Virus record (IMG/VR): IMGVR_UViG_3300037421_000012
Span: 1 to 33,501 of that record
DNA from: a virus
Strand: one strand, 5' to 3'
DNA: 33,501 nucleotides
Of this stretch, positions 3,469 through 31,484 are shown piece by piece (the first letter of the stretch is position 1; each line of letters begins with the position of its first letter). The notes below the pieces were generated by a model. It worked only from the letters and a program-made list of their open reading frames with translations. It was not told the DNA's origin and made no database searches. Made by a program: the position numbers and the translations under genes.

Positions 3469-3731
3469 GACTCGCCGCATGTAGTGGGCTGGACACGAAT
3501 ATGTTCCATTCCGAGGCGGTCTTGGCGGTTGAGCAGTCTAAAGCGATATGCGCTCAATGTCGTGTTGTTAAGGAATGCCTAGAGTTTGCATTGCCTCATG
3601 ATAGGGCTAATTCGTTTGATAGCGGTATGGGTATCTATGGTGGACTAACGCCTAGTGAGCGTAAAAACTTTTGGAGACGTTTGCAAAGAACTAACCAGCC
3701 CGCTTATCTAGCAAGGCAAAGCGATGGCTAG
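3423..3731 (+). CDS. WhiB-family iron-sulfur transcriptional regulator
   Basis: The protein has 102 residues and starts at a GTG preceded by a G-rich stretch. The four iron-sulfur ligands C20, C43, C46 and C52 (spacing C-x2-C-x5-C for the last three) are followed by GMGIYGGLTPSER, the turn and helix that bind the primary sigma factor and DNA. WhiB proteins occur only in actinobacteria and their phages and bind a redox-sensitive 4Fe-4S cluster. Phage copies such as WhiBTM4 can interfere with the host's own WhiB2 or tune phage promoters. It overlaps the next gene by 8 bp. Confidence 0.92.
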   Translation: MATSTADDDKSNAWMRLAACSGLDTNMFHSEAVLAVEQSKAICAQCRVVKECLEFALPHDRANSFDSGMGIYGGLTPSERKNFWRRLQRTNQPAYLARQSDG

Positions 3732-3930
3732 GAAACTTACTAGCGACGAATCACGAGAAACTTTACTTAGGACTAGCGCAGACGTAGCCGCTCATGCCTT
3801 AGTACAGCTAGAGATACTAGCAAAGGAATGGCCTGAGTTTACGCCGGATGCTAAGGAATACCGTGTATTCGTAGAGCGTCTTATTGAAAGTGCAAAGCAA
3901 TACGGATATATGGAGAAGACGAGGATTTGA
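3724..3930 (+). CDS. small helical hypothetical protein
   Basis: The product has 68 residues, is mostly helical and charged (RETLLRTSADVAAHALVQLEIL, then EYRVFVERLIESAKQYGY), with no cysteines or membrane segments. I do not recognise the family. It overlaps whiB by 8 bp and abuts the next gene (TGA then ATG), so it belongs to the same operon. Its DNA is rich in CTAG tetramers. Confidence 0.7.
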   Translation: MARKLTSDESRETLLRTSADVAAHALVQLEILAKEWPEFTPDAKEYRVFVERLIESAKQYGYMEKTRI

Positions 3931-4497
3931 ATGGGCAATATCTCGACGCCATTTAGGGCACGACCAACGATTTACAAGGGTATCGAGATGCGATCTCGGT
4001 TGGAGGCCAAATGGGCGGCGTACATTGATGACATGCGCCTAGATCCCGACGATACACTCGGAGACTGGGAGTACGAACCGTTCTGTTTTGCTAGTGACGC
4101 TGGACAGTATCTGCCCGATTTTCGTCAGCGAGATCGTGGATGCCAGTGGGTTTACTACGAAGTCAAGCCACGCTTAGATGACCCTACTCCAGTCATGAAG
4201 CAAATGGAAATCATACTGGACTCAGATCCCGGCGCCGAATTGATTATCTGGGTGGGAGACCCTAATGGTGACTATTGCTCTTGGATATGCCAAAGATATC
4301 ACCCTGCTGCATGGTATCAATGGGCTAGCCCCATTGAAGGATTGGGTGATGATTGCGGGATCTTCAGGGATGTTCCTACGCCCAAATGGTTTAGCGATTT
4401 CACTCTAGATTCCTTAGCACTAGACCTTTACAATGCTAGGGATTGGACCACTTTAAGCGAATTGGAAAGTGAGTATTTCGCTCGGAGGGACGCGTAG
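3931..4497 (+). CDS. PD-(D/E)XK nuclease superfamily protein
   Basis: The protein has 188 residues. It contains YKGIEMRSRLEAKWAAYID (with the helix glutamate), W-E-Y-E-P, YLPDF (catalytic Asp) and YYEVKP (the E-x-K strand), in that order within the first 90 residues. This is the layout of TnsA/T7 endonuclease I-like PD-(D/E)XK proteins that are frequent in phages. The C-terminal half (WICQRYHPAAWYQW and onward) has no motif I recognise. The ATG follows the previous stop directly. A role in DNA processing or in degrading host DNA is possible; this is inference. Confidence 0.75.
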   Translation: MGNISTPFRARPTIYKGIEMRSRLEAKWAAYIDDMRLDPDDTLGDWEYEPFCFASDAGQYLPDFRQRDRGCQWVYYEVKPRLDDPTPVMKQMEIILDSDPGAELIIWVGDPNGDYCSWICQRYHPAAWYQWASPIEGLGDDCGIFRDVPTPKWFSDFTLDSLALDLYNARDWTTLSELESEYFARRDA

Positions 4498-10129: not shown

Positions 10130-11248
10130 ATGGAAGTAGATGCTATCGGGCGCACAGCCCCGCGTCCATACCCAGAGTTGTGGGATGCCGAATGGCTGAC
10201 CGAGCGAACGCAGAAACAGACGATGGACGAGATCGCATCTGATCTCGGGTGCAGCGTCTCTACGGTTTATAACGCCGTTAATCGCATGGGCATCGTACCA
10301 CCGCGCCGCCACGGCCTGAACAACAATGGCAAAGACAGGCCATGGCAACTCAATGATCTTGAATGGATGGAGAACGCTCTTAAAACTAAGAGTTGCGGGA
10401 AGATTGGCAAAGAACTCGGTGCGTCTAAGGCGACCGTAGCTTTTGCAGCTGGTCGTCTAGGGATTGAGTTTGATGGACGCCCGCCAAACGCGTTGCCGTG
10501 GGAAGACTTTGTGGGTGTTCGGTTTGGCATACTAGTGGTGACGGGGTTAGCTCCACGGAACGGATCAAGTTTTCAGAGAGTGTCGGTTGAATGTGATTGC
10601 GGCGGCAGTAAGGCAATCGCTCTAGCGTCCCTGGTCACCCATCGCCCAGGGTGGGACCATTGTGGATGTTTGACTGCCGAGAAAAGCGCGGCGACTAGGG
10701 CGGAACGCAGGGCACTGAGACCCCCTAAGCCTGGGATCAACGATGGTCTGTGTTCGTATGTCGAGGGATGCGACAAGCGGGCGCGTACTGGTGGATTATG
10801 TACCGTACATTACCAAGAGCAACGCGAACAATGGCTCCCAACCTGTGGAGTGATTGAGAATGGTGCGGACGGACGTTGCGGTAAGCCAGTGCGATGCATA
10901 CGAGATTTATTGTGCTCAACGCATTACCACAGATTACTGAAGTGGGATGACGTTCTCTATTCTCCTGACCCTCATGAACACAAGGTTGAGAAAACCAAAT
11001 CGGGTTATCGAACCATCTCACGCAACAAAATTATTCGTCAGGAACACACCTGGGTGATGATGGACCATCTGGGGCGAGAGCTTTTGCCCCACGAGGAAGT
11101 TCACCACAAAAACGGTGAACGTGATGACAACCGCCTGTCAAATCTTGAGCTTTGGGATAAGTCGCATCCCGCTGGTCAGCGGGTTGAGGATAAAGTTGCA
11201 TGGTGTCGTGAATACCTTGCCACATATGGTGAGATGTTTCCTGAGTGA
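10130..11248 (+). CDS. HNH endonuclease with helix-turn-helix and zinc-ribbon domains
   Basis: The protein has 372 residues. Two helix-turn-helix units come first (MDEIASDLGCSVSTVYNAVNRMGI at about 33-56 and CGKIGKELGASKATVAFAAGRLGI at about 88-111), then cysteine clusters at about 150-270 (C-D-C, H-C-G-C, C-x5-C, C-x2-H), and a C-terminal HNH domain ending HEEVHHKNGERDDNRLSNLELW. A Shine-Dalgarno TTGGAGG lies in a small AAACC/GGTTT hairpin before the ATG, so translation may be controlled. It is either a homing-type nuclease or the HNH protein that assists terminase; the small-terminase-like gene immediately downstream (4-bp overlap) favours packaging. Confidence 0.75.
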   Translation: MEVDAIGRTAPRPYPELWDAEWLTERTQKQTMDEIASDLGCSVSTVYNAVNRMGIVPPRRHGLNNNGKDRPWQLNDLEWMENALKTKSCGKIGKELGASKATVAFAAGRLGIEFDGRPPNALPWEDFVGVRFGILVVTGLAPRNGSSFQRVSVECDCGGSKAIALASLVTHRPGWDHCGCLTAEKSAATRAERRALRPPKPGINDGLCSYVEGCDKRARTGGLCTVHYQEQREQWLPTCGVIENGADGRCGKPVRCIRDLLCSTHYHRLLKWDDVLYSPDPHEHKVEKTKSGYRTISRNKIIRQEHTWVMMDHLGRELLPHEEVHHKNGERDDNRLSNLELWDKSHPAGQRVEDKVAWCREYLATYGEMFPE

Positions 11249-15722: not shown

Positions 15723-17346
15723 TTGGCACAGATAACCCCGCGACTATCAGCAGTCACGAACATCCTTGCCGATAAGTATGCACCGATAGAAAAACAATCT
15801 GCATGGTATTGCAACGACGCCAATTGCGATGGGAAGGCCCACGCGGGATGGGAGTGGAAGCATTGTCGTGCAAATCAGCGACCGCCGGAGTCTGATTGGT
15901 TCGTATGGCTCCTGATGAGCGGTCGTGGATTTTGGCAAAAGTCGAACAGCCGCAGAATGGTTATTGCGTGAGGCATCACGTCACCCCAAGACGGAATGGG
16001 CCATCGTCGCGCCCACCGGGATGGACACTGCAAAATGTTTCAACGACCTCAGAGTCGGCATAAATAGTATCGGTCATTACGGACAGCCCGATAGCATCAT
16101 CGCGAAGTACAACCAGACGCTCCATGACGCCGTTCTCACGAATGGTGCGATCATTCACGGTGTCAGTGCTGACCGTCCTGACAGACTGCGTGGTTTCAAC
16201 TTAGCTGGAGCATGGTGCGATGAGCTAAGTTCGTGGCGTTATCCAGACACCTGGGATCTCGGCCTACTCCCCGCCATCCGTGACGACAGTGTTGAGCCAC
16301 GCATCGTAGTTACGACCACGCCGAAACCGGTCATCCTTCTTAAGCAACTCGTTGACGAAGAACAAGTAGACATTGACGGCATCCCAATGGGATCGACCGT
16401 TATCACCCGCGGCTCCACGTTCGACAATCAAGACAATCTGGCCCCACGTTTCATTTCGGAAATGAGGACGCGGTACGAAGGTACGCGTCGCGGTCGCCAG
16501 GAACTCTACGGCGAGATGTTGCTTGACGTTGACGGCGCACTTGTCAGTCAAGACATGATCGATGCGGCCCGTCTCCGCGAACTACCCGAACACGTCATGA
16601 TGATTCGTACCGTCATTGCTGTCGATCCGGCGACTACTTCGGGCGAACGATCAGACGAGACTGGCATCATCGTCGTCGCGAAAGGTATCGACAATCGCGG
16701 TTATGTCATCGCGGACCTGTCGTGCAAGGAGACTCCTGACGGCTGGGCGCGTATCGTCTGCAAAGCGTACGACCAGTACAAATGCGATCGTGTCATTGCC
16801 GAGAAGAACCAGGGCGGTGACATGGTTGAGCGGATCGTCCGATCCGTCAATCCGAACATCGCTTATACCGGAGTGAACGCGAAGGTCGGCAAGAAACTAC
16901 GTGCCGAACCTGTCGCCGCGCTGTATGAACAGGGCAAAGTTTCGCACATCGGATACTTTGCTGAACTTGAAGAACAATGGACGTCTTGGGTACCCGACTT
17001 AGCGGCACACCAGAAGTCACCTGACCGCGTTGACGCGTTGGTGCACGGTATTACCGAACTCGGACTCATTGGACTTCCGGGCGTCCACATCTCGTCATTC
17101 ATGGAATTGAATCACCCCAGCTGTCGGATATGTAGCCAGCCCGCACCCGCAGGAACTCCTAAATGTCCCAAATGTGGTGCGGATAGACAGGACGCCGCGG
17201 TACCAGCAAATACCAATACCGAGACAACCCCATGGTCAATTATCGGATATGGCGATGCATCTGCTCCGCCTAATCCGCAGGTTGAAGCAGTTCAAGAGCT
17301 GCTACGTAGCATTCAGGGGCCAGAGAAGTGGTGGAACCGTCGCTAA
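15723..17346 (+). CDS. terL: terminase large subunit, frame broken (+1) inside Walker A
   Basis: Translation starts at a TTG (GAGG upstream) and runs as WLLMSGRGF, but then leaves frame: the DNA has TTTT at 15930-15933 where TTT would continue to GKSRTAAEW. From 15934 the next frame carries the rest to 17346. Dropping one T yields 540 residues with Walker A GRGFGKS (about 69-75), a Walker B-like GAWCDELSSW (about 162), a nuclease domain from VIAVDPATTSG (about 297) and a C-terminal zinc ribbon (CRIC...CPKC). Terminase packages DNA into the prohead using ATP. The break may be a programmed +1 shift (UUU U), a real mutation, or a homopolymer sequencing error. A separate start at GTG 15925 would lose Walker A. 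Confidence 0.85.
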
Positions 17347-17430: not shown

Positions 17431-18111
17431 ATGCCTAAAACATATCCGCCAGGAATTTGTGATTATTGTGGTGGTCCTCGGACAACACCACAAGCACGCC
17501 TTTACTGTAGTAAGGAATGCGCCTGGAGTGCACTGTCTGAACGCCGCACTGCGGAGTTTATGGAGAACCGCATCAAGGTAACGTGCGAATGGTGCGGTAA
17601 AAAGTTCGCGGTGCCGCCATCTCAACCAAACCGCAGATTTTGCAGCAGTGTTTGTAGCGGCAAGGGGACGACGCCGACCGGGAGCGCGAATCCTCTTTTC
17701 AAACCCACAACGACCATTATCTGTGAAGAGTGCCATACGCCATTTGAAGTGAAGCCCCATAGGGTTGGGAAGGCAAGGTTCTGTTCATTCTCATGCCGAT
17801 CCATTTCACGACAGAGATCCAACCCCCGCATATCCTCCATTGAAATCACGGTCGCAGAAGAACTAACCCGCAGGAATCTTTTGTTTGATGGTCAGGTCCG
17901 CGTGGGACTATTTGTTCCCGACTTCATAGTTGGAAATACCATTATTGAAGTGGATGGCGACTACTGGCATAACAGACCAGATATAGCCGAACGCGATCTA
18001 CGCAAGAACGCATTTTACGAAGAAAGTGGATTTGATGTCATTCGCATTTGGGAGCATGAGATTCTTGCTGGCGATTTCTCAAAACTAGATGTTTTGCAAT
18101 CGGTCGCATGA
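17431..18111 (+). CDS. free-standing homing endonuclease, Vsr/EDxHD-like with zinc fingers
   Basis: The protein has 226 residues. Three treble-clef zinc modules come first: CDYCGGP...YCSKEC (about 9-31), CEWCGKKF...FCSSVC (about 51-73) and CEECHTPF...FCSFSC (about 91-115). The C-terminal domain (about 130-220) is Vsr-like/PD-(D/E)XK: GLFVPDFIVGNTIIEVDGDYWH, then ERDLRKNAFYEESGFDVIRIWEHEI. This is the design of EDxHD homing endonucleases such as I-Bth0305I, which copy themselves into cognate sites. It has no intron of its own and sits between terL and the next gene, preceded by a stem-loop and GGGAGGG. Confidence 0.8.
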   Translation: MPKTYPPGICDYCGGPRTTPQARLYCSKECAWSALSERRTAEFMENRIKVTCEWCGKKFAVPPSQPNRRFCSSVCSGKGTTPTGSANPLFKPTTTIICEECHTPFEVKPHRVGKARFCSFSCRSISRQRSNPRISSIEITVAEELTRRNLLFDGQVRVGLFVPDFIVGNTIIEVDGDYWHNRPDIAERDLRKNAFYEESGFDVIRIWEHEILAGDFSKLDVLQSVA

Positions 18112-21095: not shown

Positions 21096-21761
21096 ATGGC
21101 AAAGCAAAAACTTATCGGCATTTATTGCATTTGGTTGTTTGATGGGCGCTGTTACATCGGACAGAGCGTCGACATAGAGAAACGCTGGAGGGTCCATCGC
21201 CGCCAGCTTCCGAAACACCAGAATCACAGCACCTATTTCTACCACGTATGGGACAAATACGGTCCCGATGCTTTCACCTTTGACGTAATTGAACATATTG
21301 ACATTACCGAAATGTCAGACGATGCTGCCAAGACGTATCTGACCGAACGTGAACAATATTGGATGGACATCACGTTCTCGTGCCTCAACGGATGTCCTGT
21401 TGCTGGTGGAAGTGTTCTGGGTCGAAAGGATACAGAGGAGACCAAAGAACTCAAGCGACAAGCCATGATTGGTCGCGATCATTGGTGGGGGGACAAGATT
21501 TCCGCCACCAAGATGGGTCATGAAGTTTCAGAAGAAACGCGCAAGATTCTTAGTGATCAACGTATGGGCGTCCCAACTCGTCCATGTTCACCAGAAACAC
21601 GAGCAAAAATAAGCGCCGCTCACATCGGTCTCAAGCACTCAGAAGAGTCTAGAGCCAAGATGCGAGCGTCAAGGTTGGCCTACATTGAACGTGAAAAAGC
21701 AGAGAAACTACAGTCCCTGGAGGGAATGAATGCCGATTCCCATCCTGAGTGCGAGACGTGA
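21096..21761 (+). CDS. GIY-YIG homing endonuclease with NUMOD3 repeats
   Basis: The protein has 221 residues. GIY (8-10) and YIG (20-22) open the nuclease domain, followed by VDIEKRWRVHRRQL (catalytic arginine) and LTEREQYWMD (catalytic glutamate). The C-terminal part has DNA-binding NUMOD3-type repeats: KLSx-like EVSEETRKILSDQRMG, CSPETRAKISAAHIG and HSEESRAKMRASRL. It is a free-standing homing endonuclease; it overlaps the portal gene by 32 bp. GCGGGAGGG precedes the ATG. Confidence 0.9.
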   Translation: MAKQKLIGIYCIWLFDGRCYIGQSVDIEKRWRVHRRQLPKHQNHSTYFYHVWDKYGPDAFTFDVIEHIDITEMSDDAAKTYLTEREQYWMDITFSCLNGCPVAGGSVLGRKDTEETKELKRQAMIGRDHWWGDKISATKMGHEVSEETRKILSDQRMGVPTRPCSPETRAKISAAHIGLKHSEESRAKMRASRLAYIEREKAEKLQSLEGMNADSHPECET

Positions 21762-24267
21762 CCGCCGACAGACGGAGATTCAAGCAGCAATTACCGCTGG
21801 GATCGAAGCTGGTCTAGAAAAGGCCCTTACTCCCGCAGTTATGTCGGCAGGCAATGCCGTGCCAGGCGTATCATATCCTGCCGACTTCAACCCGTCATCA
21901 CCATTTAATCAAACGGCGGGAGCGATGGCGTCGCCGTTGCCGCGCCCATACGATACATTCGGTAGTTTGTTTGGTCCGGGCAGCCCCCTCACGCCTGACG
22001 CTCTAGATAGATTGCGACCAGACGGTCGTGCCGACGCGCGCCGCTGGCAGTATCCAGTTACAGTAAACCTACAACTGGGTCAGTATGGTGCACCGTGGTC
22101 AACCCTATATGATATTGCTACCAATGTAGATGTCGTCTCTCACTGCCTAAATCTCGTTTGTGATGCCATCTCTGGTATGGAGTGGTCGTTCTCATTCAGT
22201 AACCAAGTTATTGACCAGATTCGACTAGAAAATAACGAGCCCAATAGCGCCAAGGCCATCGCCCTGGCGCGCGACAAGTATGGCGAAGAATTAACGCGGG
22301 TCCAGAAATTTTGGCAATACCCAGACGAGGAAATGGACCAGACATTTAGTCAGTGGTTGAGTGCGGTTGTTTGGGCGCATCTCGTCTATGATGGGCTGCC
22401 AATTATACCAAAATATACCCTGGGTGGCGACCTACACTCACTGTCGCTCATTGATACTTCAAGCATTAAGCGACTTGTCAATGACTATGGGTTCCCACCG
22501 CAGCCACCGGCCCCGGCGTTTCAACAGGTGCTATACGGCTTCCCGCGGTCAGAATTCCAGGCCGATAATTACGATGGGCCAGTAGAGGGTGAATATCGTC
22601 GCGATCAGATGGCGTATTTCGTTAGGCGGTATCGTCCGAAGACGCTCTACGGTTTTTCAATTGTAGAAGAATGTATTCCGTACGCGACGCTCTACCAACA
22701 GCGGCAAGAGTGGCTACACGCAGAGTGGAGTCATGGAAGCACACCCAAGGGCGTCATCAAAACAACTGGAACTGAAGGTTGGACTCCCGAACAATTTTCG
22801 TACTTTCAGACGTCCGTTAACGATCAGTGGTCTGGTCAGACGCAGCGTCGGCAACAAGTTATGGTTCTACGTCCAGGCATGGAATGGGACCAGCTAAAAG
22901 ACTTTGCTGAGTTATATACGACCACGTTTGACGAGTGGATCACCATGCAGTTGGGTTCCAAGTTTGGAGTTCCGCAGCAGCAGCTGGGAATACCTATGCA
23001 TTCGTTTGCCCGCAGCGGTGTGCAAAACCAAACGAGCATGGATCTCACTGATAAGTTTAGTTTGGATAGTCTCGTTAACTTTCTGGTTGACTGTATCAAT
23101 CGACTGAACTCACGCTTCATGGGTGTCGGTCCAGAAATCACAGTTACCGCTACGTCCGGCAATGGTGACCAGTCGGACTACCAACGAGCACAGGCCGACG
23201 CCAGTGATGTCAATAATGGCATCCGCACGCGCAACGAGGTTCGTCAAGAGCGCGGACTGCCGCTCATGTCTGATCCTGAAATGGATGTCGCCGTAGTTGT
23301 GGCTGGCAACGCCGTTATCTTCTTGCCGGGACAGCTCGCATACCAAGAAGCTTCCGAGCGCGCCATTGAGGAGGGCAGTATCGCGACCGCGGAGCCTAAC
23401 GTTGCGACTCCATCAGAGAACGCGCAAAACAAACCTCCGACTCAAGCAAACGCACCGGCCGATCCAAAATCAAAATCAAATGTTGCAGAAACCACTAACC
23501 GCGCGGTGGGTCATATTTCACCTGGCACGGATATGGTATCGCATGGGACGGATCGTAAGGCCCAAGCAACTAGACAAACTGGAGCCCCTCAATCATCGTC
23601 GGCGGCTGGTTCCTACACCGAAAAATCACGCGAACTCGCAGCATTCACAAAATTCGCTAAAGCGCGTTTCAGTGGCACCAAGAACTATCGCGTCTTTGAA
23701 TTCCACCACGTCGATCCCGCCACAGCCACTACCCTCAACAACATAGCGTATGACGGTACGCTTGATGATCTCAAGCCCGTCATCGCTGACGTACTTGCAA
23801 AGTCCGCCACACCTCCGACCGCCGCTGGACTGTGTGTACGCGCCATCGACACGCAACGTGTACTCATGTTGCAACGCCGACTAGACGACACCGATCCAGC
23901 ATCTGGCAAGTTTGAATTTCCAGGTGGACACGTTGAACCTGGCGGAACATCCTACGAAGCAGCGTGTCGAGAATTCACAGAAGAAACTGGCACGCCGTGT
24001 CCTGATGGAACTGTCGTCAATGAATGGCTCAGTCCGGACGGCGTGTATCAGCTGTACGTGATGGAGGTGCCAAGTGAGGCAGACGTTGCGATCAATATGG
24101 ATCAGCATGCTGGTACGCCTTTCAACCCGGATGACCCTGATGGCGACGCGCCTGAAATTGCTACTTGGTGGAGCGTGGAAAGCATTCTTGGTAATCCTGC
24201 GATCCGTACCGAAGTCGCGCTAGTCAACCCGACCATACTTCAGCCGCCCGTCATTAAGTATCAGTAA
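21730..24267 (+). CDS. portal protein with C-terminal NUDIX domain
   Basis: The protein has 845 residues. The portal core (about 95-530) includes WSTLYDIATNVDVVSHCLNLV, FYLG-type ADNYDGPVEGEYRRDQMAYFVRRYRPKTLYG (in parts), QEWLHAEWSHGSTPKGVI and LGSKFGVPQQQLGI, typical of actinophage portal proteins that form the dodecameric DNA gate. A disordered linker (about 555-640) leads to a NUDIX domain: AGLCVRAIDTQRVLMLQRR, then the box GGHVEPGG...CREFTEETGTP (about 735-758). The metal-binding REx2EE core is intact; the first conserved Glu of the box is replaced by Gly. NUDIX enzymes hydrolyse nucleoside diphosphate derivatives. Fusion to a portal is striking. CTGGAGGGA precedes the ATG. Confidence 0.85.
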   Translation: MPIPILSARRDRRQTEIQAAITAGIEAGLEKALTPAVMSAGNAVPGVSYPADFNPSSPFNQTAGAMASPLPRPYDTFGSLFGPGSPLTPDALDRLRPDGRADARRWQYPVTVNLQLGQYGAPWSTLYDIATNVDVVSHCLNLVCDAISGMEWSFSFSNQVIDQIRLENNEPNSAKAIALARDKYGEELTRVQKFWQYPDEEMDQTFSQWLSAVVWAHLVYDGLPIIPKYTLGGDLHSLSLIDTSSIKRLVNDYGFPPQPPAPAFQQVLYGFPRSEFQADNYDGPVEGEYRRDQMAYFVRRYRPKTLYGFSIVEECIPYATLYQQRQEWLHAEWSHGSTPKGVIKTTGTEGWTPEQFSYFQTSVNDQWSGQTQRRQQVMVLRPGMEWDQLKDFAELYTTTFDEWITMQLGSKFGVPQQQLGIPMHSFARSGVQNQTSMDLTDKFSLDSLVNFLVDCINRLNSRFMGVGPEITVTATSGNGDQSDYQRAQADASDVNNGIRTRNEVRQERGLPLMSDPEMDVAVVVAGNAVIFLPGQLAYQEASERAIEEGSIATAEPNVATPSENAQNKPPTQANAPADPKSKSNVAETTNRAVGHISPGTDMVSHGTDRKAQATRQTGAPQSSSAAGSYTEKSRELAAFTKFAKARFSGTKNYRVFEFHHVDPATATTLNNIAYDGTLDDLKPVIADVLAKSATPPTAAGLCVRAIDTQRVLMLQRRLDDTDPASGKFEFPGGHVEPGGTSYEAACREFTEETGTPCPDGTVVNEWLSPDGVYQLYVMEVPSEADVAINMDQHAGTPFNPDDPDGDAPEIATWWSVESILGNPAIRTEVALVNPTILQPPVIKYQ

Positions 24268-25339: not shown

Positions 25340-27361
25340 ATGCCTATTGATACCGACGAAATTGAGATCACGGAGTTGGCCGAGTTCGAGCCGACAAGAA
25401 TAGACGGAGTTGGGAAAGCTGCAACAGGCTTCCCGATCCTCATGCTCAAGAGTCTTGATGATGAAATCATTGAAACTGAAACTACACTTGAAGAGGTCTT
25501 GGTCCAAGTCATCAAAACGGACGAACGCGAAAAGTGTGCAGACGGACCATGCGCCAAGTGTTTTGGCACCGGCTTGTCTCCAAAACTCGGGGAAACTCCT
25601 GACGAACTCATCGCGGCGGCGAAGGCGAGTGCTCCAAGTGGCGCGCCAGTACCAGTGCGTGCAGACTGTCCCACTTGCGTCAACGGTTACCTTCCCGACG
25701 ATAAGGTCTGTCCAGATTGCGATGGCAGCGGGAAAGACTCAACGGAACCGCCCTCCGACAAATTGGCACGCGTTGATGCGGACGGACATTTTATCCGCGA
25801 AGGAGACGCAAAGGGCAGCGAAAAGGTGGATAAATCCACCGCGGAACTTTGCGACGATGACGATTGCGACATTTGCAAGGAACTCTTCGGTGACGAGTTT
25901 ACCGTCGAAAAGGCAAAACTGAAGGCGAAGACGCGCAATGCACTTTCAGACAGTGCATTCGCGTTGCCCGGAAGACGGTATCCCATTCACGACATTAGCC
26001 ACGCGCGTAATGCACTGGCACGCGTCGCGCAAAATGGCACACCCGAAGAGAAGGCCAAGGTTCGTGCCGCGGTGCACCGCAAGTATCCTGAGATTGAGTC
26101 CGCTACTGCGAAGGCTGACGGGACCACGTTCAGTGCGCCAAATCCTGCACTTGCAACATCCGACTCAACCGTAGCGACCGACGCGAACGCGCCAGGTTCG
26201 TCAACTTGGGAAGCACAAGACGCTCAGACCGCCACGGATGCTGCCGTTGCACTCATGGCAGCCGCCGAACTGATCAGAACGTTTGCGAGTCGTGAGGCAC
26301 AAGAAGTCGCTGCTGGTGAAGGTAGCGACGTGGTGGACGTATTCGACGCTTCGCAGGCTCTTTGCGCCGTCAACGATGCACTTGGAGTAATGGCCCGACT
26401 GGCATTTCATGAGGGTCTGGAGGCAGCTAAATCTGCTGATGACGTAGAGAAGGCTGGTAAGCGACTGTCTCGCAAGTCCGTGAGTGCACTCGCGACCGCG
26501 CGTGACCACATTACACAGCTGTTGGGTGATGATGACCCATCAAAGAATGATGACAATGACGACGGTGCTACGAAGTCCGTCGAACTAGACATGGACAAAC
26601 TGTCCAAGGAGATTGAGAATATGGAAGTTGACGAGCTTACTAAGTGGGCCGACGCGCGCGATGAAAAGCTCGTCGGCACCGTTGGCGACATTGTTGCCGA
26701 GGCATTGAAGGGATTGCCTGCGAAGAATAACGCGGAAGCAATTGCGAGTGCCAAGGATGCTAACGCCAAGGGCAAGAATCGCAAGAAGAAGGTCGCCGCT
26801 ACGGATGACGTTCTTGAGGATGAGGCCGATCAGGGCACCAATGATTCCGCATCGTCACCCGCTACGGGTGCTGCGAAGTCTGAGGGTGACGAAGATGCCG
26901 CCGCTGACGAAGAGACTGGCGCAGATGAGACCGACGACGCGGCGAAGGCTGCGGACGAGGTTGAACTGACGCCCGAAGAGATCGAAGCAAAGAAGGCCCG
27001 TAAGGATGCCAAGAAGGCACTGAAGGCCGCGAAACTAGCTGAGAGAGAATTGGCCACGAAGGTGGCGCTGACCAAGAGCATTGAAGAGAGTCTTGCGAAG
27101 GTTGTTGAGCAGAACGAGGTTCTGAAGGCAACGGTTGAGACACTGACTGGTGAACTTGATGGCGTCAAGAAAATGGCCGCACCAAGCACGATTTCGCGTA
27201 CGGCTCCCGCCGATGCGCAGATTGCTGCGAAGGCGCGTGACGACCGTGACATGCAGATCCTTGCATTGGAGCGTAAGGCACGCGAATCAAATGACCCCGA
27301 TGTCAAGAAGGCTGCTCGGGAAGACCTGCGCGAACTGCGCGGGGCTGGAGTTGCCTCTTGA
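25340..27361 (+). CDS. scaffold-like protein with DnaJ-type zinc cluster and coiled-coil tail
   Basis: The protein has 673 residues. Region 1 (about 60-140) carries CAKCFGTG, CPTCVNGYL and CPDCDGSG, which are DnaJ-type CxxCxGxG knuckles. Region 2 has ALPGRRYPIHDISHARNALARVAQNGTPEEKAKVRAAVHRKYPE in parts, a DUF6582-like motif found with phage head proteins. The last 200 residues are Ala/Lys/Glu-rich (EEIEAKKARKDAKKALKAAKL and following), a coiled-coil scaffold helix. It probably guides capsid assembly and is removed by the protease encoded directly before it. TAAGGAGCTAG precedes the ATG. Confidence 0.72.
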   Translation: MPIDTDEIEITELAEFEPTRIDGVGKAATGFPILMLKSLDDEIIETETTLEEVLVQVIKTDEREKCADGPCAKCFGTGLSPKLGETPDELIAAAKASAPSGAPVPVRADCPTCVNGYLPDDKVCPDCDGSGKDSTEPPSDKLARVDADGHFIREGDAKGSEKVDKSTAELCDDDDCDICKELFGDEFTVEKAKLKAKTRNALSDSAFALPGRRYPIHDISHARNALARVAQNGTPEEKAKVRAAVHRKYPEIESATAKADGTTFSAPNPALATSDSTVATDANAPGSSTWEAQDAQTATDAAVALMAAAELIRTFASREAQEVAAGEGSDVVDVFDASQALCAVNDALGVMARLAFHEGLEAAKSADDVEKAGKRLSRKSVSALATARDHITQLLGDDDPSKNDDNDDGATKSVELDMDKLSKEIENMEVDELTKWADARDEKLVGTVGDIVAEALKGLPAKNNAEAIASAKDANAKGKNRKKKVAATDDVLEDEADQGTNDSASSPATGAAKSEGDEDAAADEETGADETDDAAKAADEVELTPEEIEAKKARKDAKKALKAAKLAERELATKVALTKSIEESLAKVVEQNEVLKATVETLTGELDGVKKMAAPSTISRTAPADAQIAAKARDDRDMQILALERKARESNDPDVKKAAREDLRELRGAGVAS

Positions 27362-27385: not shown

Positions 27386-28135
27386 ATGGCTCTGCCTATT
27401 CCTTCAGCGCGTGAACTCATGGATGGAAGTACGTCTGCTGAAGAGCAGGCTAATCGTCGGTCCGCCAACACGGTCGTTAAGTCGGCCCGTGAGGTTTCGA
27501 CAGAATACGATGAGTTCGTCGCTGAAATGACAAAGGCGACCATTGCCGGTCTTAACGGCGCTACGGAGTGGGACATGAGTCCCGATGCTCCGAAGGGTTA
27601 CGTTGGGAACGCTGCGGTTGCCCCCATTCGTCACAATCCGTCTCGGAGTTCCGTTGTCACCAAGGCAATGGACGACTATGAGATGGCCAAGTCCACCGAG
27701 GGCGGTCCTGCTGCTTGGGATCGTCTGGCTAAGGAGTGGACGCTGACCACGCCGATTTCAACCGGTTTGGTTCCGTTTGACCTTGAGGCTCCCGCCAAGC
27801 TTCTGACTCCGCGGCCCACGCCGCTTCGTAACTCGATTCCACGAGTTAAGGGTCAGGGTGGCGCTCGCCGCTTTAAGGTGATTTCTGGATTCACGGGTAC
27901 TGGTACTGGTAGTCAAACAACTACTCAGCCAGGCATCAATGAGTCCACCACGAATGCTGGCCCTGGTGGGCTTTCGTACATTCGTGGACCGTACATTTCG
28001 TACGCCGGTTACGACGTGACGTTGAATTACGTTACCACTTCGTTGTCGGACAGTGTTTCATGGCAGGCGGAGTACCAAGGTCAGGGTTTTGAGGACGTTC
28101 GTTCGCTCTCTAACACTGCACTTTTGTACTCGACT
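27386..28135 (+). CDS. major capsid protein, exon 1
   Basis: The exon encodes residues 1-250 of the capsid protein (MALPIPSARELMDG and on), with N-arm, WDRLAKEWTLTTPISTG and SVSWQAEYQGQGFEDVRSLS, HK97-type helical backbone. AAAGGAAAATAT precedes the ATG. It ends LLYST at a U (28135), phase 0. The frame runs 24 bases into the intron before a stop, but the six codons read there (QSGSAA) would break a continuous helix that resumes MLLDERLMIYGRG in exon 2, so I place the splice at 28135. Four exons sum to 599 codons. Confidence 0.85.
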
Positions 28136-29024
28136 CAAAGCGGGTCCGCTGCTGCGTGAGCGGCAGATGACAACCACGAGAATTGCTGGAATCTCCTGAA
28201 GCTATTACAACCACAACGTGGCACCAAAGTGCGGGCGTAACGGTTTGAGAATGTGATAGTATGGGACAATCAGCAGCCGAGCCCCGGTAACAGGGGAAGG
28301 TTCAGAGACTCTGTACGTGGAATCTGTTTTACCCCAAAGGTTTGGTTGGTGTTGACGTAGCTGTCACTGCGCCGATACCAACCATCATTTAGACCTCTAT
28401 GACAGGAGAGATCGCAATGGCAACATCCGAAAACTGGACACGAGAAAATCTTGCGTGGTGCGCTGGAATTTTTGAAGGTGAAGGCAGTCTTCACTGGACA
28501 GCACCTCAACCACAACGAAAAGATGGTCGTCATCCAGGCGGTCAAAGTCTCATCATCTCCATTGGCATGACGGATGAGGACGTGTTGCGCACGTTCCATC
28601 GGATTGCGGGAGTTGGCACGATTTATGGACCGTACCAAGCCAAGCCACCGAGTAATAAGCCACATTGGACATACCGAGCACAAGGCGCAGACGCCTATGC
28701 TCTGATTGTGGCCATGTGGCACTGGCTTCACGGAAGACGCCAAGAAAATGCCGCGGTATCAATGCGACAGTGGCTAAATTCTCACCCCAAGCGGGCGCTA
28801 TCTGCCGATCAGGTAATGGCGATTCGTAAAGCGTATCGGGGTGGTGGAACAACCTACGCCGCACTTGGTGCAGAATACGGTGTTTCTGCTTCTGCCATTC
28901 ATCTCATCATGAATGGAACAACATACAAATGGGTAACAGATTAAGATATAGTCCGTACTCACTGGAAACAGTGAGAGTCACGCAGAAATGACGTGACCTT
29001 GCCGTAAGGCAAGTAACAATCTAG
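28136..29024 (+). ncRNA. group I intron 1 of the capsid gene (889 nt, contains endonuclease ORF)
   Basis: The intron begins after U28135 and ends with G29024. P1 can form between GACU (28132-28135) and GGUC (28143-28146) with the required U-G pair; P2 is CUGCUGC/GCGGCAG (28149-28166). The core word AATCAGCAGCCGAGC (about 28268) and AAGGTTCAGAGACT (about 28298) mark the P4-P7 region, and the other P7 strand is AGATATAGTC (about 28944-28952). The endonuclease ORF lies between the two P7 strands, in P8, and its stop touches the 3' core. The last shared elements are GCAGAAATGACGTGACC and GTAACAA before the 3' splice site. Confidence 0.85.
28417..28944 (+). CDS. LAGLIDADG homing endonuclease encoded in intron 1
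   Basis: The protein has 175 residues from the ATG at 28417 (AGGAGAG upstream; an ATG at 28399 is less likely). One LAGLIDADG motif is present, LAWCAGIFEGEGSL (12-25), so it should act as a homodimer. After the alpha/beta core (SIGMTDEDVLRTFHRIAGVG) a C-terminal helix-turn-helix (SADQVMAIRKAYRGGGTTYAALGAEYGVSASAIHLIMNG, in parts) resembles those of intron endonucleases that recognise an extended target. It would cut an intronless capsid gene and so spread intron 1. Confidence 0.85.
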   Translation: MATSENWTRENLAWCAGIFEGEGSLHWTAPQPQRKDGRHPGGQSLIISIGMTDEDVLRTFHRIAGVGTIYGPYQAKPPSNKPHWTYRAQGADAYALIVAMWHWLHGRRQENAAVSMRQWLNSHPKRALSADQVMAIRKAYRGGGTTYAALGAEYGVSASAIHLIMNGTTYKWVTD

Positions 29025-29924
29025 ATGCTTCTTGACGAGCGACTGATGATCTACGGTCGCGGTACCACGACTAACGGCTATGCCGGTACTCTTGGTGTCG
29101 TTCCGACGTTCACTCTCGCAGCCGTCTCTGCTTCAATCGCTCCCGGTGGAACTTCCACCCTTGGTACTTCCGCTTCGGTTTTCGTTGTGGTTGCTACTGA
29201 TGCTGGTGACCTTCTTGGTACCACGGGTGTTGCAATGCACCAGGGTCCGGCGTCTAACGTCGCGACTTCGGTGGGCACTTCGGCTGGTCTGACCGCTGTT
29301 CAGGTGACTATCACCAACGACAGCTCGCAGACTGGTGCGTTGGGGTACAACCTCTATGCCGCTTCGGTGGCTGGTGGTCCGTACTACTACGCAGGTCGTA
29401 CTGGTTACAATGTGGGGTACATTACTTCACAGCCTTCCGCTGGCCCCACGGTCACGGTCGGTGCTGCTGACCAGTCTACTTCGTCTAACAACTACGACGG
29501 ACTGTTGACGAACGTTTCTGCCTCTGGTGGTTACGTGACTCGATTGAACGCTGCTCTGTCAACGACCAATCCTGGCGTTGAATTCCAGACGGCATTCGGT
29601 TCGCTGTATGAGGCTGTTAAGGGTGACCCGGATGAGGTTTGGATGAACGGTTTTGACCGTCTTCAACTCTCGAACGCGCTGCTCAACAACGCGGCCAACA
29701 GTGCCTACCGTGTCTACATTCAGAATGACGCAATGAGTGGTGTCAATGTTGGCGCCGTCGTTTCGACTATCTTGAATGAAGTGACTGGTTCAAGTATTCC
29801 AATCACGGTCCACCCGTGGTTCCCGCAGGGAAACTCGCTGATTCGTCAGAAGACGCTTCCGATCCCAGACAGCAATGTCTCGGAAACTAGCGTGATGACG
29901 CTTCCGCAGGATTACGTGGCTGTT
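29025..29924 (+). CDS. major capsid protein, exon 2
   Basis: The exon encodes capsid residues 251-550 (MLLDERLMIYGRGTTTNGYAG at the start). It includes a Gly/Ser/Thr-rich insertion (FTLAAVSASIAPGGTSTLG and on) with immunoglobulin-like character, an E-loop/backbone stretch (GDPDEVWMNGFDRLQLSNAL) and PITVHPWFPQGNSLIRQKTL. It ends DYVAV at U29924, phase 0. The frame reads on to a stop at 29948, but those codons (QNIGLAA) are intronic by comparison with introns 1 and 3. Confidence 0.85.
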
Positions 29925-30206
29925 CAAAACATTGGACTCGCTGCCTAGCAATAGGCAGATGATAACGCAGAGAATTGCTGGGACATCCGGCTAGGTGATT
30001 GCACTACAGCATGACGCGAAAGCGTGAGTGCGATAGTTCAAAAAGCAATCAATACGGACAATCAGCAGCCGAGCCTCTTCACTGAGGAAGGTTCAACGAC
30101 TAGGTACTGCGCATCCCAAGAGGATGAAGATATAGTCTGTTCTTGCAAGAAATTGCAAGAGTCAAGCAGAAATGACTTGGCCCATCGCAAGATGAGTAAC
30201 AACCAG
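29925..30206 (+). ncRNA. group I intron 2 of the capsid gene (282 nt, no ORF)
   Basis: The core word AATCAGCAGCCGAGC starts at 30061, followed by GGAAGGTTCA and P7 halves ACGACTAG (about 30097) and ATATAGTC (about 30130). P2 is CUGCCU/AGGCAG (29941-29958). P1 with the exon is weak here (GUU with GAC), so the 5' splice position is the least certain of the three. It begins CAAA like intron 1 and ends with G30206. It shares GAGAATTGCTGG, GCAGAAATGAC and GTAACAA with the other two introns. No endonuclease gene is present. Confidence 0.8.
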
Positions 30207-30246
30207 CAGTGGCCCGTAACCCAATTTACCTATGACGCATCGACTT
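30207..30246 (+). CDS. major capsid protein, exon 3 (40-nt micro-exon)
   Basis: The exon is only 40 bases: 13 codons (QWPVTQFTYDAST) plus the first base of the next codon. It joins DYVAV of exon 2 to FEIGTLCHYAP of exon 4, with the split codon T+TT giving Phe. Both other reading frames of this stretch hit stops, so the frame is certain. Its right end forms the strong P1 helix of intron 3. Confidence 0.85.
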
Positions 30247-30530
30247 GGACCTCACGAGTCGCCGCCTAGTAATAGGCGTGAAATAACACCGAGAATTGCT
30301 GGAATATCTCGCTAGGTGTATCCACCACATCGGGACGCGAAAGCGTGAACGCGATGGTTAGAAAAGTGATACAATAGAGACAATCAGCAGCCGAGCTTCT
30401 GTAAAATGAGGAAGGTTCAGAGAACATGTACGGTGCCCCTTGTTTAAGGGTGAAGATATGTTCCGGTCTTGCTGGAGACAGTAAGAGTCACGCAGAAATG
30501 ACGTGACCCGCGCAAGCGGTAACAACTACG
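30247..30530 (+). ncRNA. group I intron 3 of the capsid gene (284 nt, no ORF)
   Basis: P1 is excellent: exon CGACUU (30241-30246) with GAGUCG (30256-30261), six pairs ending in U-G at the splice site. P2 is CGCCU/AGGCG (30263-30278). The core word CAATCAGCAGCCGAGC starts at about 30381. P7 is GAACAU (30422-30427) with AUGUUC (30458-30463), different bases from introns 1 and 2 but still fully paired, which is compensatory change. It ends with G30530. No ORF. Confidence 0.87.
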
Positions 30531-30637
30531 TTGAGATCGGTACGTTGTGTCACTACGCCCCCGCCTGGAATGGTCTCATTTCCGGCATCCAGGGTGTCGG
30601 AATTGGTGTGAAGCCGCCTTCATTTGGTGACTCCTAA
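30531..30637 (+). CDS. major capsid protein, exon 4
   Basis: The exon completes the split Phe codon and encodes EIGTLCHYAPAWNGLISGI and a short tail to the TAA at 30635-30637. All four exons together are 1797 nt, 599 codons including stop, giving 598 residues. The tail carries the usual C-terminal HK97-type strand. Confidence 0.85.
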
Positions 30638-30652
30638 TCCAGTCAAAAACTA

Positions 30653-30765
30653 AGAGTTAGACCCTAACTCTGGCTCCCATAATGGTTCATTGTGTCGGTC
30701 CGATTCCGACAATGGGAACTCTAGTCCGAATGGCGGTCGCCACGAACTTCGGTCATTTGGACTAG
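30653..30765 (+). repeat. cluster of three stem-loops after the capsid gene
   Basis: AGAGTTAG-ACC-CTAACTCT (30653-30671) is a perfect 8-bp hairpin. Next, GTTC...GAAC enclose CATTGT..CGG paired with CCGACAATG (about 30684-30720). Third, CTAGTCC (30721-30727) pairs with GGACTAG (30759-30765), with AATG/CATT and GGCG/CGCC inside. The whole 160-bp spacer (30638-30797) contains nothing else apart from an AT-rich CTATATACC before the next gene. None has a U tract. They may slow transcription or protect the abundant capsid mRNA 3' end. Confidence 0.55.
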
Positions 30766-30797
30766 TATCTATATACCTTTTCGTGGAAGGAATTCAT

Positions 30798-31484
30798 ATG
30801 ACGAGTCTTAGCGAACCCGTGGCCTACGCTCCAAAATTATGCGAGATATGTGGTGACGGGTTTGCGCCAACCAGTGGGCGCCAACGGGTCTGTACTAATC
30901 CAGACTGTCAACGGGAGCTGGAAAGATGGCGTCGGTTTCGCGTAAAACAAAAAAGGTCTGAGGCTATCAACCGACCGACCGAGAAGAACTGTGATTGGGT
31001 TGGATGTCCGATCATGATCCCAGTCTCTTGGACTGGTGTATTGCCAAAATACTGTCCGCCACACTATCAGCAAAGCATCGCACCCAAGGCTCAAGCAGCC
31101 AACAGCGAGTGGCGTCTTAAGACGATTGACATCCAGTGTAGTCACCCAATTTGCGAGAATTTACAGCATCCCAGTGCGCATGGCTGGTGTCACTACCATT
31201 ACACAATCTGGACCGTGCACAATTTAGACGCCGAGGGTTGGTGGACCTTCTACAACGACCAGAATGGTCGCTGCCCCATCTGTGGTGCAACGTTGCTGAA
31301 TGGCACAATCATAGCGATTGACCATGATCACGTGGCTCAACCAAAGGCGCGGCATAAGAAGGAGCATGCGCGCGGTCTATTGCACGCCGCTCCGTGCAAC
31401 GGTCTCATTCTTGGCGGTATTGAGACCGCCATTGCTAACGGGTGGTTTGAAAACGCACTCCGTTACATTCATTTTGATCTTTAG
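30798..31484 (+). CDS. endonuclease VII-like HNH nuclease with zinc fingers
   Basis: The protein has 228 residues. N-terminal knuckles CEICGDGF...CTNPDC (about 15-38), CDWVGC...YCPPHY (about 62-82) and CSHPICENL...WCHYHY (about 105-128) lead to the catalytic part: GRCPICGATL, IAIDHDH and RGLLHAAPCNGLILGG, the recombination endonuclease VII pattern. T4 endonuclease VII resolves branched DNA; actinophages carry related free-standing homing copies. Its site right after the intron-rich capsid gene and its stem-loop leader suggest a mobile insert. GGAAGGAATTCAT precedes the ATG. Confidence 0.82.
   Translation: MTSLSEPVAYAPKLCEICGDGFAPTSGRQRVCTNPDCQRELERWRRFRVKQKRSEAINRPTEKNCDWVGCPIMIPVSWTGVLPKYCPPHYQQSIAPKAQAANSEWRLKTIDIQCSHPICENLQHPSAHGWCHYHYTIWTVHNLDAEGWWTFYNDQNGRCPICGATLLNGTIIAIDHDHVAQPKARHKKEHARGLLHAAPCNGLILGGIETAIANGWFENALRYIHFDL

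Follow-up and report, generated by a model that had tools for sequence, protein, structure and literature searches.

Three predicted group I introns and a 40-nt exon in the capsid gene of an uncultured phage, with a survey of its relatives

How would a virus produce its capsid from a gene interrupted three times, one of the four exons being only 40 nt long? The question is raised by positions 27386–30637 of IMGVR_UViG_3300037421_000012, an uncultured virus of bacteria of which a stretch of 33,501 nt (hereafter, the window) was analysed. A preliminary description had proposed that the major capsid gene lying there is split by group I introns of 889, 282 and 284 nt, and that its exons sum to 599 codons. 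These coordinates proved exact (Table 1), and the total of 750 + 900 + 40 + 107 = 1797 nt does correspond to 599 codons, stop codon included, hence to a protein of 598 residues. Our account of the locus, to which we give a probability of about 94%, is that of an HK97-fold major capsid gene of a tailed phage, from the mRNA of which three group I introns of a single family would be removed by guanosine-initiated self-splicing, the joined exons encoding the 598-residue capsid protein, and of introns that would persist as selfish elements colonising conserved capsid codons.

Table 1. Features of the capsid locus (window coordinates) and intron insertion sites in the clade.
Feature	Position	Strand	Details
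Capsid exon 1	27386..28135	+	750 nt, codons 1–250; ends in U at the intron 1 site
Group I intron 1	28136..29024	+	889 nt; Rfam RF00028; P1 and P10; same site in L124 and L015
Intron 1 elements	P7 28307–28310 / 28950–28953; guide 28143–28146; P10 28138–28142 with exon 29026–29030	+
LAGLIDADG-like homing endonuclease ORF (putative)	28399..28944	+	181 aa, in P8 loop of intron 1; phrog_5046, E 2e-16
Capsid exon 2	29025..29924	+	900 nt, codons 251–550; from ORF, homologues and junction ranking
Group I intron 2	29925..30206	+	282 nt, without ORF; Rfam, covariation, P10
Intron 2 elements	P7 30098–30102 / 30133–30137; P10 29930–29934 with exon 30207–30211	+
Capsid exon 3 (micro-exon)	30207..30246	+	40 nt: QWPVTQFTYDAST and the first base of the next codon, F
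Group I intron 3	30247..30530	+	284 nt, without ORF; Rfam, same site in L145, covariation
Intron 3 elements	P7 30422–30426 / 30459–30463; P10 30251–30254 with exon 30532–30535	+
Capsid exon 4	30531..30637	+	107 nt, up to the stop codon
Capsid protein segment			DYVAVQWPVTQF; predicted spliced product
Free-standing endonuclease VII / HNH gene	30690..31484	+	directly downstream of capsid gene; Pfam Endonuclease_7, E 2.7e-6
Insertion sites (window residue numbers)			133 L145, L124; 136 L019; 146 L015; 169 L141; 202 L014
Insertion sites (continued)			228 L014, L141, L145; 235 L014, L141, L019; 250 window, L124, L015
Insertion sites (continued)			517 L019; 548 L145; 550 window; 565 window, L145; 569 L014; 574 L019, L145

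The junctions were assessed by enumerating every pair of exon U and intron G near each site and scoring the resulting reading by BLOSUM. Those of Table 1 rank first in the three cases (best vs. next: 57 vs. 37, 67 vs. 38 and 56 vs. 38), and all of them obey the expected rule of a U at the 5′ site and a G at the 3′ end. In 10 aligned intronless homologues (44–78% identical), the three junctions are contiguous codons devoid of indels, and exon 3 has an in-frame counterpart in every one of the 10; the close homologues read LLYSTMLLDERL, DYVAVQWPV and DASTFEIGT, which agrees with the smooth reading anticipated across LLYST/MLLDERL, DYVAV/QWPVTQF and DAST/FEIGTL. None of the 10 has inserted residues of the kind that the proposal assigns to introns, which leaves the proposal standing. 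Within the window, retention of any one of the three introns leads to a stop within 6–7 codons. Because each retained intron meets such an early stop, capsid production needs the removal of all three, and the dependence on triple self-splicing that had been put forward follows by logic to this extent; the splicing itself, like its efficiency, we infer.

The covariance-model search suggested at the outset (Rfam Intron_gpI, i.e., RF00028, gathering score 50) returned full-length matches to all three inserts: 52.4 bits (E 1e-10) for intron 1, 67.5 bits (E 3e-15) for intron 2, and 49.1 bits (E 2e-11 in an 801-base search), thus 0.9 bit under the cut-off, for intron 3. P7 of intron 1, as read from the sequence, is limited to four standard pairs where the alignment places it. 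Covariation was studied in an alignment of 11 ORF-less introns (two of the window, plus nine distributed over four relatives), the consensus structure of which (RNAalifold, with P7 added) comprises 72 pairs. Over these, 97.8% of the cells are paired, and 44 of the 72 pairs, P7 pseudoknot included, show two-sided changes, a count reached by none of 500 shuffles, these being controls into which the relatedness of the introns still enters. P7 itself takes four matching forms across the 11 introns. The alignment was not fitted to the structure, yet the structure was derived from the alignment, so that slid controls flatter it; the shuffles are free of this weakness. Since paired positions covary, the introns are under selection for structure, and the full-length RF00028 matches and covarying pairs together indicate a group I core (P3–P9 with P7). 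Covariance models, homologues, covariation and guide pairing (see below) thus support the prediction of three group I introns with the junctions given here, and these very probably excise themselves from the capsid mRNA.

The product of the gene belongs to phrog_13692, a family with no assigned name, and "major capsid" was originally a guess from genomic context. That guess is now backed by an AlphaFold model of L009, a close homologue that lacks introns and shares 72% identity with the protein of the window, computed with L009 as the first sequence of a 72-sequence alignment of intronless homologues (pLDDT 78), which superseded an earlier and too poor model from 19 sequences (pLDDT 52.8). Compared with known capsid families, the L009 model has the HK97 capsid fold, matching the capsids of SPO1 (Z 21.5), HK97 (gp5, Z 18.0) and SU10, with Z in the range 18–21. 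Related genes occur in the genomes of Streptomyces and other actinomycetes, which suggests, short of proof, that the phage host is probably an actinobacterium.

Several neighbouring features deserve mention in their own right. Just 3′ of the capsid stop codon (30671–30721) lies a conserved tRNA-like minihelix, a 6-pair acceptor-like stem around a 5-pair T-arm, with copies in L001 (7715), L004 (7816), L007 (7834), L008 (7738), L010 (7780), L011 (3365), L014 (8625), L015 (6437), L019 (8292) and L141 (6911); L006 and L009 seem to carry longer versions and L145 has none. Most copies share the T-loop UUCGAUU, and most a constant linker, AAUGGUU; two-sided covariation affects 8 of the 11 pairs (0 of 500 shuffles). 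The minihelix has no Rfam match above threshold and is not detected as a tRNA by ARAGORN; the capsid mRNA may be processed there. The 673-codon protein encoded upstream of the capsid gene (25340–27361) combines paired CxxC motifs close to the N-terminus with a C-terminal half rich in charged residues, and is possibly a scaffold or protease fusion. The portal protein (PF04860) and a C-terminal NUDIX domain (PF00293) share one 845-codon ORF (21730–24267). The terminase large subunit (15723–17346) is frameshifted inside Walker A at GGATTTTGGC, with one extra T relative to SGRGFGKS, which is either a sequencing error or a true frameshift; the terminase of three relatives (G008, G010 and G012) consists of two ORFs split at about residue 220.

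Among the introns of the window, only the first would carry a homing endonuclease gene. Its ORF has a LAGLIDADG-like motif, LAWCAGIFEGEG, and a C-terminal tail resembling a helix-turn-helix, and aligns with intron ORFs of L145 and L014. It does not reach the threshold of the Pfam LAGLIDADG models, and its truncated relative in L014 matches LAGLIDADG_3 weakly (E 0.06); similar phage proteins are labelled both HNH and LAGLIDADG, and a search of solved structures with this ORF gave no useful match. The nuclease genes of long introns all sit in the same loop. They belong to GIY-YIG with NUMOD3 (L141, L145, L124), GIY-YIG (L015), HNH (L014), endonuclease VII (L015) and the LAGLIDADG-like type (window, L145, L014), and would encode active nucleases of introns that are presumably mobile. 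Some are apparently decaying: the LAGLIDADG-like copy of L014 is internally truncated and the GIY-YIG copy of L019 seemingly frameshifted, as would be usual for homing genes. Nor need the same insertion site mean the same nuclease, since site 250 holds the LAGLIDADG-like ORF in the window, endonuclease VII in L015 and nothing but a 55-codon ORF in L124. The free-standing gene downstream of the capsid gene, of the same Pfam family as the L015 nuclease at site 250, is probably a neighbouring selfish element. Further free-standing nuclease-like genes of the window are HNH_3 (10130–11248), DUF559/MTES_1575-type (17431–18111) and GIY-YIG with NUMOD3 (21096–21761).

A search of the viral collection yielded 19 viral loci encoding relatives of the capsid protein. 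Among close relatives, the gene is interrupted in seven species-level contigs, including the window, and uninterrupted in eight, the species being grouped by eye from identity and length, with no formal cut-off. Introns occupy about 14 sites (Table 1), and evolutionary statements are limited by the small number, seven, of interrupted genomes; apart from the reference phages, all sequences come from metagenome assembly. Five introns are present in L145, internal exons of which measure 47 nt (the counterpart of the 40-nt exon) and 32 nt, and a 19-nt exon between sites 228 and 235 is common to L014 and L141. Codons at insertion sites are more conserved than random capsid-core codons (0.893 vs. 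0.789, p 0.0001). Wherever an intron-bearing record was searched (three of these records span 89–102 kb), group I matches proved confined to the capsid gene; there are none in the seven intronless relatives searched. In the broader family (best 80 of 197 loci by score), a single distant case is interrupted, in a ranking that disfavours interrupted genes. That case (L054, 3900–6700, about 31–37% identical) has two introns of the same family, one of them at the FDL site, where L145 and L124 have an intron as well, and its 101-kb record contains no further group I match. At site 228, the 222-nt intron of L014 (6079–6300; Rfam 50.9 bits) has a core without the motifs of all its neighbours and apparently represents a different group I lineage, L141 and L145 holding the common family there. 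Finally, L015 contains a 440-bp tandem duplication (3495–3933 and 4047–4486) that covers a portion of a capsid exon along with the beginning of its intron, without counterpart in the 99.8% identical contig L256; it is either a strain variant or an assembly artefact, and its absence from this twin led us to set it aside as an alternative exon.

Such a distribution might reflect conflict between phages, in which nucleases would attack conserved codons in the capsid genes of co-infecting relatives, while an intron at the target site would protect its carrier. The conserved insertion sites, the confinement of group I matches to the capsid gene and the presence of four nuclease types are consistent with it, as is the benefit of this kind that phage PhiPA3 derived from an intron nuclease (PMC11620839). 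However, any homing intron ordinarily targets conserved codons, and many introns of the clade have no nuclease or a decayed one, so that we regard this function as tentative and rather unlikely. In a similarly doubtful extension, the capsid gene would be the one standing battleground of mobile introns in the clade, colonised site by site down to exons of 19 nt; if true, nucleases that cut the capsid genes of co-infecting relatives bring an advantage, and resident introns shield their carriers.

The pairing of intron guides with exons bears on whether splicing might instead be regulated. In the three introns of the window, the U of the 5′ exon faces a guide G in P1, with 3–6 exon pairs, P10 has 5, 5 and 4 pairs, respectively, and a terminal G is present. 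Across the family, 21 of 24 introns have an exon U and an omega G at junctions that restore the protein, counts that leave out L015 site 146 and L124 site 133 (no clean solution) as well as the duplicated L015 intron. Mean P10 pairing amounts to 3.71 bp, whereas exchanging the 3′ exons among introns brings it to 2.35 ± 0.28, and none of 2000 such exchanges equals the real value. In the P1 and P10 matrices of the window the diagonals dominate, i.e., each guide pairs best with its own exons, which answers in part the earlier worry that the two ribozymes flanking exon 3 might take each other's parts. Skipping of exon 3 or retention of introns in part of the mRNA, yielding a second capsid form or a tuned capsid output, would recall the exon skipping reported for Twort orf142 and a SIOphi gene (PMC11878797), and both the 75% identity between introns 2 and 3 and the nearly interchangeable guides of L141 go in that direction. 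Nevertheless, a message without exon 3 would be read out of frame beyond the gap, with another sequence in place of the conserved C-terminus, any retained intron would terminate translation almost immediately, and the guides of the window favour their own exons, which disfavours skipping; alternative or regulated splicing is improbable in our view. Under self-splicing of all three introns, each guide would choose its splice sites through P1 with the 5′ exon and P10 with the 3′ exon, and the 40-nt exon should be included, not skipped, because the guides differ enough.

As to their origin, the three introns could have been copied inside the capsid gene, since they are pairwise 72–75% identical. 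Yet introns of the same genome are no more alike than average (identity 0.668 vs. 0.679 by chance, p 0.96, permutation), a result that speaks against recent copying; between genomes, introns that share a site slightly exceed chance (0.714, p 0.003). Recent duplication within the gene was rejected on this basis, and copying in general is very improbable, the contradiction bearing on recent events and leaving room for ancient ones. The comparison favours separate arrivals, and site-wise inheritance or homing, over recent copying inside the gene; with introns about 70% identical, it does not reach the deeper history, and the intron tree, mostly unresolved, does not weigh on either side. Least credible of all is the idea that the gene is decaying into a pseudogene or was assembled as a chimera, with inserts devoid of function: the window is a metagenome contig with a frameshifted terminase gene, and the L015 duplication is missing from its twin, but the four exons are open and join in frame into 598 conserved codons, several independent contigs have the same kind of architecture, and pair covariation places the introns under structural selection.

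Parts of this arrangement have precedents. The capsid gene of mycobacteriophage LittleE (Cluster J) has one intron of ~820 bp, probably group I, the splicing of which was shown by RT-PCR and N-terminal sequencing (PMC3706429). LittleE, a phage of actinobacteria as that of the window probably is, shares with the window the interrupted capsid gene, a nuclease gene of LAGLIDADG type (putative in the window), the U before the intron and the G at its end, but the window has three introns (up to five in relatives) and a micro-exon, where LittleE has one and none, and its ORF is on the + strand with the gene, whereas the LittleE nuclease is read on the opposite strand. The gene orf142 of Staphylococcus phage Twort, later identified as a tail tube gene, is reported to contain three similar group I introns and to undergo exon skipping (Landthaler and Shub 1999, as cited in PMC11878797 and PMC3073962); it resembles the window in having three such introns in one phage structural gene, and differs in that the window gene would encode the capsid and that skipping was observed in Twort. 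Bastillevirinae have up to three introns per gene, two introns separated by no more than a small exon (phiNIT1 rNDPL) and exon skipping in a SIOphi gene (PMC11878797). Three introns in one gene and a small inter-intron exon are common to the window, whose introns nevertheless interrupt the capsid gene, whereas PMC11878797 stresses that in Bastillevirinae the capsid gene is spared, the introns being located in genes for DNA polymerase, terminase and nucleotide metabolism. In placozoan mitochondrial cox1, a one-base exon stands between two group I introns (PMC5436844), like the micro-exon of the window but far shorter, so that exons of 40 and 19 nt are not the extreme. One intron in a capsid gene, three in a phage gene, and a small exon separating two introns have thus each been described before. 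In the literature that we searched, which included few subscription papers and does not prove absence, neither a multiply interrupted capsid gene nor a phage gene with five introns came to light, nor did a clade-wide hot spot of capsid-gene introns with up to five of them.

If our account is correct, a capsid gene, which calls for very high expression, would rely on several ribozymes (up to five) per message in about half of the sampled species of the clade, and capsid messages would have to keep exons of 19–47 nt. The clade would thereby offer a natural test of the orthogonality of parallel group I ribozymes, of exon inclusion without a spliceosome and of the choice of one gene by mobile introns. 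In metagenomes, capsid genes of this kind will be overlooked or cut short by gene callers.
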